Shown: positions 6,607 through 8,130 of the stretch, piece by piece
Layout: each line of letters opens with the position of its first letter
Numbering within the stretch: position 1 is the stretch's first letter
Assembly (NCBI GenBank): GCA_937929825.1
Contig: CALFUV010000007.1
Span: 1-53,564 of the forward strand
Length of the DNA stretch: 53,564 nucleotides
DNA from: an uncultured Patescibacteria group bacterium
Lineage (GTDB): Bacteria; Patescibacteriota; Patescibacteriia; Veblenbacterales; UBA10138
Direction: 5' to 3'
Translations under genes and position numbers: made by a program
Notes under the pieces: model-generated
The model's database searches: none
Told to the model about the DNA's origin: nothing
What the model saw: the letters and a program-made list of their open reading frames with translations, nothing else

Positions 6607-6751
6607 AGATATCTTAAGACTAAAATAAAAAGCCTTATTTAGCAAACCAAAATCTATGAAACAATGATTATATATTCTGTTTTTTGCCTTAATTTTTACC
6701 CTCTTTAAGCTAAAAATCTTATATTTATTAAGCTAAAATTTTCCACAAGCC

Positions 6752-6780
6752 TTGACAAAATCTTCAACTTGCGCTATATT
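6752..6780 (+). promoter_or_regulatory. Near-consensus sigma70 promoter
   Basis: TTGACA (6752-6757), 17-nt spacer, TATATT (6775-6780). Confidence 0.8.
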
Positions 6781-6785
6781 TATAT

Positions 6786-7115
6786 GTTATTTAAAAATCA
6801 ATCATAGTGTGATCTGCCGGTTAGTGCTTGCTGGTAATTCCTACCAAGAGTATTTATCTAGGTATCAGACTAAAGCACATAAATTCCAGCTGTAGTTGAA
6901 TAAACAGTAATGGATGTGAAGCAAAAATTGGTATCTGGATAAGCACTTTTTCTGTTAGCACATTTACAAACATTTGTATTTACTGACTAGGAGGGAGACA
7001 AACGATTAAGTAATCGCTTCTAACTGGTTCACACTAGTTACTGGCGACATACATAATCGCGGATACAATGGTCTTCGGACAAAGTTGTGCCATGATCTCC
7101 TCCCGATCAGTAAAA
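6786..7115 (+). ncRNA. Candidate structured RNA / long 5' leader, no family recognised
   Basis: Long-range stem 6979-6998 with 7096-7113 closes a region containing four successive local hairpins (7003-7016, 7021-7040, 7044-7060, 7065-7088). The last is capped by GUC-UUCG-GAC. It lies directly downstream of a strong promoter and contains no convincing ORF. Confidence 0.5.
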
Positions 7116-7146
7116 ACAAATTATAAACAAAAAAAGGAAACAAACA

Positions 7147-7503
7147 ATGAATTCGCTTGAAAAAAAACCAGATTATTATTTCTGGATAGGAGTGCTACTA
7201 ATAATTACCGTCGTGTTGGTGGTACTTACAGGCATAATAGGGTTTAATCCGACACCTGATGGGAGCACCCCATTGTTCTTCACAATTTTATCCGTATTGT
7301 TACTAATCTGTATATACTTATGGATATTAATAATACTAGTATATACTAGGAAAGAAATTGTAAGTTGGATTACTACGGAATTTGGGCTGCCAAGGTACGT
7401 CTCAAAATTAATATACCTTAGTATATTAATATTTACCACAATAATTTTCTTTAATCCCATCACAATAAATTTCTTCGTTCGTTTCTCCTTCCTAGCGCTC
7501 TAA
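7147..7503 (+). CDS. Small membrane protein, unknown function
   Basis: 118 aa with about three hydrophobic segments. Purine-rich AAAAAGGAAAC upstream of the ATG. Confidence 0.65.
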   Translation: MNSLEKKPDYYFWIGVLLIITVVLVVLTGIIGFNPTPDGSTPLFFTILSVLLLICIYLWILIILVYTRKEIVSWITTEFGLPRYVSKLIYLSILIFTTIIFFNPITINFFVRFSFLAL

Positions 7504-7620: not shown

Positions 7621-8085
7621 ATGAAGATCTTAATATTCGTAACCTTTTTGTTGTTGGTTGGCTGTGCTACTAACTACCAAATAATTCCAGTGGCTACTGA
7701 ACCACCAACAAATGAACTTGAAGGGGTCAGGTACTTGTTGGTGCCTGCTCAAGATACAAAAAAAGGTACATCAATGTTTTTAGATATTAAGAACATTGAA
7801 CAAGGAACGATTAAATCAGTAAGCATCAATGGTATAAAGATAGGTAATTTTGCTGCCGGCGAGGGTTTATATATGAGGTTTACTAATCTCATATATAGTC
7901 TGTCTGAAAAAAAGTGGGACAGACGCTGGGACAGAGTCTATGGCGCTTATCGCACCATATGCTTGATTCATGTGATAATTCACGTCGATTTAATCTCTGG
8001 AAAATCCAGAAATCCTCATTGGAGTAAAGATTTCTGGATAAGCGAGGACAATATTGGCCACGGCACAATTAGAATATCTATTTAA
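7621..8085 (+). CDS. Putative lipoprotein, unknown function
   Basis: Start adjusted from the ORF-track start at 7561. ATG at 7621 has an upstream AGGAG and gives MKILIFVTFLLLVGCATNYQ, a lipobox-type signal peptide (LVGC). Confidence 0.7.
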   Translation: MKILIFVTFLLLVGCATNYQIIPVATEPPTNELEGVRYLLVPAQDTKKGTSMFLDIKNIEQGTIKSVSINGIKIGNFAAGEGLYMRFTNLIYSLSEKKWDRRWDRVYGAYRTICLIHVIIHVDLISGKSRNPHWSKDFWISEDNIGHGTIRISI

Positions 8086-8094
8086 TTTAATTTT

Positions 8095-8130
8095 GCGGTT
8101 AGATTTCTTCCTTAATCTAGCCGCTTTTTT
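8095..8130 (+). terminator. Rho-independent terminator of the small membrane/lipoprotein cassette
   Basis: GCGGTTAGATT-TCTTCCTT-AATCTAGCCGC-TTTTTT; 11-bp stem with one G-U. Confidence 0.9.

Follow-up and report, generated by a model that had tools for sequence, protein, structure and literature searches.

The segment at 6979-7113 is the core of a larger RNA of ~160 nt, here termed RNA2 (6963-7121, + strand), a three-way junction of a previously undescribed family, new to Rfam. RNA2 is a conserved structured RNA, with compensatory changes in excess of controls. It occurs in multiple copies that share promoters and a boxA-like motif, fold with a bias to the transcribed strand, evolve in concert and in some cases have no gene behind them. 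The window, that is, the whole stretch of 53,564 nucleotides analysed, is contig C7 of an 801-kb genome. In it RNA2, on the + strand, is flanked by murB and murC, which are encoded on the − strand and were named from their sequences. The features of the locus are as follows.

6740-6756, + strand: shared element upstream of the RNA, TTTCCACAAGCCTTGAC here (consensus in the family GTTCCWCAANCCTTGAC), which overlaps the −35 box; from a genome-wide pattern search.
6752-6780, + strand: predicted sigma-70-type promoter, TTGACA-17-TATATT, expected start near 6786; 11/12 consensus matches, and the same layout precedes 24 aligned family loci.
6784-6955, + strand: RNA1, which opens with a hairpin and ends in a terminator-like ~22-bp helix (arms ~6847-6869 and 6928-6949) plus U-run; conserved in relatives.
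6824-6829, + strand: RNA1 loop GTGCTT, with proposed pseudoknot partner AAGCAC at 6873-6878; the relatives inspected retain the complementarity, G007 with G-U pairs, as judged by eye rather than statistics.
6958-6968, + strand: boxA-like element, degenerate in the window copy (GCACATTTACA) and GTACTTTAACA or GTTCTTTAACA in other copies; from leader motif counts.
6963-7121, + strand: RNA2, three-way-junction RNA containing 6979-7113; covariance models R1 and R2, covariation, fold z −5.9.
6973-6986, + strand: P1 outer helix, 5′ strand (3′ strand 7107-7120); compensatory changes in 13/15 pairs, 93.8% of cells paired.
6990-6998, + strand: P1 core GGAGGGAGA, partner TCTCCTCC at 7096-7103, sequence-conserved; 94% of cells paired, no double changes.
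7003-7059, + strand: P2 arm, with apical stem TAACTGGT (7021-7028) / ACTAGTTA (7033-7040); apical helix 91% paired with compensatory changes, basal helix in 20/24 folds.
7061-7091, + strand: P3 arm, UUCG tetraloop and conserved AAA bulge; compensatory changes in 11/11 pairs of two helices.
7147-7503, + strand: small protein of 118 aa with three hydrophobic segments, preceded by AAGGAA (7134-7139); the protein is weakly similar to the same-place proteins of G004 (34%) and G001 (32%).
7621-8085, + strand: predicted lipoprotein of 154 aa, the last gene before a terminator-like hairpin (8095-8124); same-place relatives in G001 (51%) and G004 (34%).

Fold, covariation and strand of RNA2

The original prediction of a structured RNA at 6979-7113 stands up to comparison with shuffled sequence: the 135-nt segment folds at −47.9 kcal/mol (z −6.3), whereas 200 dinucleotide shuffles gave −27.6 ± 3.2 and none was as low. 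The proposed architecture had been a long-range stem (6979-6998/7096-7113) around four consecutive hairpins. The minimum-energy fold contains the closing stem (TTTACTGA..GGAGGGAGA with TCTCCTCC..TCAGTAAA), the TAACTGGT/ACTAGTTA hairpin and the UUCG-tetraloop hairpin, and all three covary in relatives. The local hairpins CGATT-AAGT-AATCG and GCGA-(9 nt)-TCGC are replaced by pairing in the lower part of P2 (CGATTA 7003-7008 with TAATCG 7054-7059; TCGCT with GGCGA), and forcing them costs 7.4 kcal/mol. Rather than five ordered helices, two of whose four inner hairpins are unsupported, the shape is a three-way junction of a closing stem (P1), a long arm (P2) and the UUCG arm (P3). The predicted extent was structured but too short: P1 continues outward to 6973-6986/7107-7120, making a very stable closing stem of >20 bp, and a second structured module (6784-6955) lies directly upstream. 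The ends given for RNA2 are covariance-model boundaries, not mapped transcript ends.

One of the checks proposed with the original prediction was covariation across relatives, and it was found. We aligned 24 RNA2 copies by sequence only (MAFFT) and scored 40 pairs; because the copies were retrieved with a model that embodies this fold, the alignment is somewhat biased towards it. Standard pairs fill 92.5% of cells, compared with 77.7% in shuffles. Compensatory (both-sided) changes occur at 28/40 pairs and the covariation score reaches 0.564, compared with 0.264 for shuffled alignments; for each of the three measures, 0/500 shuffles reached the observed value. Control structures slid by 1-3 columns had only 37-51% paired cells. 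The helices that covary are P1 outer, P2 apical and both P3 helices. By contrast, the P1 core (GGAGGGGAG/UCUCCUCC) remains paired (94% of cells) with no double changes, which indicates an extra constraint on its sequence. The P2 base could not be aligned by sequence; its support comes only from individual folds, in which 20/24 copies form it alike, the other four having a longer region with a different fold.

Fold z-scores of all 25 copies range from −4.5 to −11.8, and the + strand is more stable than the − strand in 25/25, with a margin of only 0.3 kcal/mol in the window copy. Taken over all copies, the z-score range and the strand bias identify the + strand as the functional one.

Comparison with known RNAs

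The original prediction recognised no known family, and Rfam 15 agrees: there was no match at gathering score in the window, and at E ≤ 5 the region gave chance-level matches only. Across 20 loci with RNA2 copies, no match at E ≤ 3 fell on RNA2. A literature search of partial coverage, with preprints excluded, returned no description of the element.

LOOT RNA (RF03000), a metagenome-derived bacterial RNA, resembles RNA2 in having a closing stem and in being present in some of the same genomes, but it differs in sequence and helices and occupies separate loci. The RNA2 copies tested gave no LOOT match, true LOOT hits fell at other loci (one in G004, two in G006), and the single hit in G000 (E 0.53) is at C12, away from RNA2. 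On contig C12 of G006, a LOOT RNA (167164-167281) is located ~1.6 kb from a reverse-transcriptase domain (168926-169549). Bacterial Y RNAs and retron msr-msd RNAs are similar to RNA2 in that their two ends form a stem around a branched structure. We rejected both: Ro60/TROVE (PF05731) was found in 0/8 genomes, and retron or DGR template RNA is contradicted by the RNA2-carrying G003, G004 and G007, which have no PF00078 (RVT_1) match. Phage or plasmid origin was likewise rejected, the 341-bp region having no DNA match in either collection.

OLE RNA is a large structured RNA encoded beside the gene for a small membrane protein (OapA). RNA2 shares this kind of neighbour, but it is much shorter, has another structure, is present in many copies and neighbours proteins that are mostly non-homologous.

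Promoters, leaders and genes around RNA2 copies

RNA2 copies share promoters. A search of the window's whole genome with GTTCCWCAANCCTTGAC, allowing ≤2 mismatches, returned three sites, which are exactly its three RNA2 copies, and none with the reversed pattern as control. Family copies lie behind near-consensus promoters, many of which share GTTCCWCAANCCTTGACA, found in the window's genome only at its three RNA2 copies, and TTGAC plus a TA-box at promoter spacing was present in 24/24 aligned loci. An inverted partner half-site, TGTGGAACA, is clear upstream of the promoter in only 6/24 loci, in which it lies 35-62 bp upstream.

Palindromes were also seen upstream of promoters, of the TTTTGGCTAAAATTAGCCAAAA type at L093 (G005, upstream of RNA1) and at L021 (~620-660), and TTAGCCAAAA at other copies; these could be the operator of a dedicated regulator. 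At L059 (G006:C5, 51931 onward), a divergent RNA2-like transcript, apparently without a gene, sits behind the same GTTCCACAAGCCTTGACA promoter upstream of a murJ/mviN-like gene, its closing stem running into a U-run. At L067 (G003:C43), a site matching the promoter pattern has a long inverted repeat, CATTCTCACATTCTCAAGAATGTGAGAATG, directly behind it; a second promoter and then a small membrane ORF come next.

In the window, RNA1 is present as a single copy between the promoter and RNA2. BLASTN picked out two blocks of conservation, in G001 (a congener) and in G004, with a small gene lying between them there, which indicates that the segment under study is the second of two modules, RNA1 then RNA2. 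A further BLAST match, in G024 (L024), looks like a chance match within coding sequence. RNA1 was detected in five family genomes (including G001, G004, G005 and G007) and weakly in G003, once in each and always at murB-murC.

The boxA-like motif is strongly enriched in RNA2 leaders: CTTTAACAA occurs in 8/25 copy leaders compared with 0.05 expected, and a looser form in 20/25 compared with 1.0 expected. The window copy matches neither form. The published boxA consensus, GYTCTTTAANA (PMC5725501), is matched perfectly in four family leaders, at a genome rate of ~1 per 100 kb, and also in the 16S leader of G006. The leaders of the RNA2 family thus carry the boxA sequence typical of boxA-dependent (Nus factor) transcripts, the window copy being degenerate. 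Coupling of boxA to a long leader-trailer helix is known from rRNA (PMC10250234), and RNA2 similarly has a boxA-like element and then a long helix closing a structured core. This same order of parts is a resemblance, not proof of mechanism; the RNA2 core is ~160 nt and unrelated to rRNA, occurs in several copies and often has a protein gene behind it, and any antitermination is putative. RNA2 loci resemble the boxA-bearing 5′ UTRs of genes such as suhB (PMC5725501), in which an untranslated leader before a protein gene carries a boxA-like element, but they add a large conserved fold and some have no gene. The 16S leaders of G000 and G006 (L125, L126) contain a conserved hairpin around AAAAAACAGTGGTACTT...AGTATCTCTGTTTTTT, and a boxA-like site lies between this hairpin and 16S.

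To describe the distribution of RNA2 in these uncultured, fragmented genomes we used two covariance models, R1 built from four RNA2 sequences and R2 from 24 copies, both with rough E-values. R1 matched 19/383 genomes of the class, with up to five copies each and including 8/8 family genomes, and R2 matched 27/383. Most of the eight family genomes searched (presumed relatives of Ca. Veblenbacteria) have 2-5 copies. Outside the family, where the distribution is drawn from weaker hits, copies are sporadic within the class, and a phylum-wide sample had RNA2 in only 4/382 genomes, one of them outside the class (E 9e-4). In another family, G353 (L127-L129) has four RNA2 copies, two of which precede a small membrane protein and a lipoprotein.

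Copies within a genome can be far more alike than copies at the same site. Paralogue pairs in G000, G006 and G049 match at 98-99% over the RNA, and their flanks are close to background identity, while murB-murC orthologues are only 56-73% identical between genomes. The G007 pair is 88% identical, the G004 paralogues also have their upstream region in common, and in G001 and G006:C15/C4 it is the leader that is shared rather than the core. Paralogue identity in these sequences is most simply read as conversion between copies. At least three sites (murB-murC, rRNA-linked and rel-linked) recur in different genera. At L097 in G049, a distant class member, a near-identical RNA2 pair (C1, 253917-254077 and 255348-255509) lies 1.4 kb apart, and the identity stops at the base of P1.

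In the window and most other copies, RNA2 is 20-130 nt 5′ of a small protein gene, often for a membrane or exported protein. Of the original suggestion (noncoding RNA, or riboswitch-like leader for the membrane gene downstream), the conserved structured RNA and, mostly, its position hold up; the riboswitch part is unsupported. Around 14 of 22 family copies are followed within 130 nt by an ORF with a Shine-Dalgarno-like sequence. The encoded proteins are small and mostly non-homologous to each other, and none of those searched had a Pfam or NCBIfam match above cut-off. This includes the window's 118-aa protein, for which a pattern scan of genome contigs also found no relatives; its 154-aa lipoprotein had no Pfam match, and the structure prediction for the latter (mean pLDDT 48) was not used. 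Hydrophobic segments are enriched downstream (14/20 versus 61/169, p 0.006; size-matched 27/65, p 0.04).

At least four copies have no gene: G000:C14, G000:C22, G007:C6 and the murB-murC copy of G007, the last three being followed by a terminator hairpin. They keep a strong fold, with R2 scores (115-138 bits) as high as those of gene-bearing copies. In G005:C51, a terminator hairpin lies 5′ of the ORF. At the murB-murC site, RNA2 is retained in family genomes (in G005, at a contig end beside murB), and the genes behind it vary or, in G007, are absent.

Possible roles of RNA2

We give somewhat less than an even chance to the reading we prefer, in which RNA2 is stable, structured and functional in its own right and often doubles as the 5′ leader of the mRNA for a small orphan, often envelope, protein. 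Its function, together with processing and stability, we infer: autonomous action from the gene-less copies and the changing genes, and a leader role from the many copies with genes. Transcription would begin at the near-consensus, probably regulated promoter, and the boxA-like sequence of the leader would load NusB/S10, so that Rho could not stop RNA polymerase in the untranslated stretch. A stem of more than 20 bp encloses the two-armed RNA2 core, much like the leader-trailer helix of rRNA, and the RNA would probably be cut out or stabilised via that stem. It would then act as an RNA, presumably in trans; its likeliest partner would be a protein or the ribosome, contacted by the GGAGGGGAG strand, whose sequence is conserved, together with the AAA bulge in P3 and the tip of P2. 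Against this reading, the boxA of the window copy is degenerate, and more copies are gene-linked than a purely autonomous RNA needs. The downstream enrichment in hydrophobic segments also counts against autonomy and points to a role in cis.

A less probable but still substantial alternative is a purely cis-acting 5′ leader, which would control translation, stability or membrane targeting of the mRNA for a small orphan envelope protein, gene-less copies being relics. The ORFs with Shine-Dalgarno-like sequences behind most copies, the enrichment of the encoded proteins in hydrophobic segments, their lack of family matches where searched and the promoters common to the whole set all fit such a leader. 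However, at least four gene-less copies have kept a strong fold (115-138 bits), the downstream genes are mostly non-homologous, and we found no switching partner, or alternative pairing with the ribosome site, conserved across RNA2 copies. An anti-Shine-Dalgarno switch via UCUCCUCC was rejected as not general: the 5′ strand is better conserved, and the 3′ strand of subfamily B is CUCUACCCC. We consider it improbable that RNA2 is part of the sensor of a ligand-binding riboswitch or attenuator, with the terminator-like helix of RNA1 and a two-way loop deciding read-through. The ~22-bp helix of RNA1 followed by U5, and the GTGCTT loop with its two possible partners in the window and G001, would suit such a device, and RNA1 could itself be an attenuator, a lead suggested by the helix, U5 and the loop's potential to pair with AAGCAC. 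But RNA1 is found only at the murB-murC copy, RNA2 mostly occurs without RNA1, and the terminator arm of G004 is AAACAC, which loses the second pairing. A riboswitch is disfavoured because the genes downstream have no function in common and the stability of P1 speaks against easy switching; an aptamer over functionally related genes was rejected, given the mostly non-homologous orphans downstream and the copies without a gene.

The near-identical copies between unrelated flanks (G000, G006, G049) and the passenger genes that vary at fixed sites might instead reflect a mobile or self-copying RNA-coding cassette, of which RNA2 would be the conserved part, copied between sites with its passengers. 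Such a cassette has an equally slim chance, as the sites common to genera indicate vertical inheritance and ordinary gene conversion explains the identity; a non-systematic look noticed no integrase or target duplication, and three genomes lack an RVT_1 match. Long inverted repeats are often intergenic, yet a chance or DNA-level inverted repeat (a terminator or attC-like site) with no RNA function is scarcely credible in view of the compensatory changes, and it is contradicted by the plus-strand bias in all copies and the promoters directly upstream.

A bolder version of the preferred reading, which we regard as rather unlikely, is that RNA2 represents a new class of abundant bacterial noncoding RNA that acts in trans and is made much as rRNA is, from a near-consensus promoter and with a boxA and a long helix around its core. 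Gene conversion would keep the copies uniform in the very small genomes of Patescibacteria, and the RNA would serve as a common platform for expressing fast-changing envelope proteins. To our knowledge, the noncoding RNAs of the candidate phyla radiation have hardly been described. That RNA2 is multi-copy in genomes of ~1 Mb or smaller, with shared promoters and a fold kept whatever the gene, suggests that it matters to the cell. Its covariance model, promoter motif, boxA and fixed sites offer handles on the control of small orphan proteins (often of the envelope) in these presumed episymbionts, and also on whether Nus-factor antitermination may serve non-rRNA RNAs in this group.
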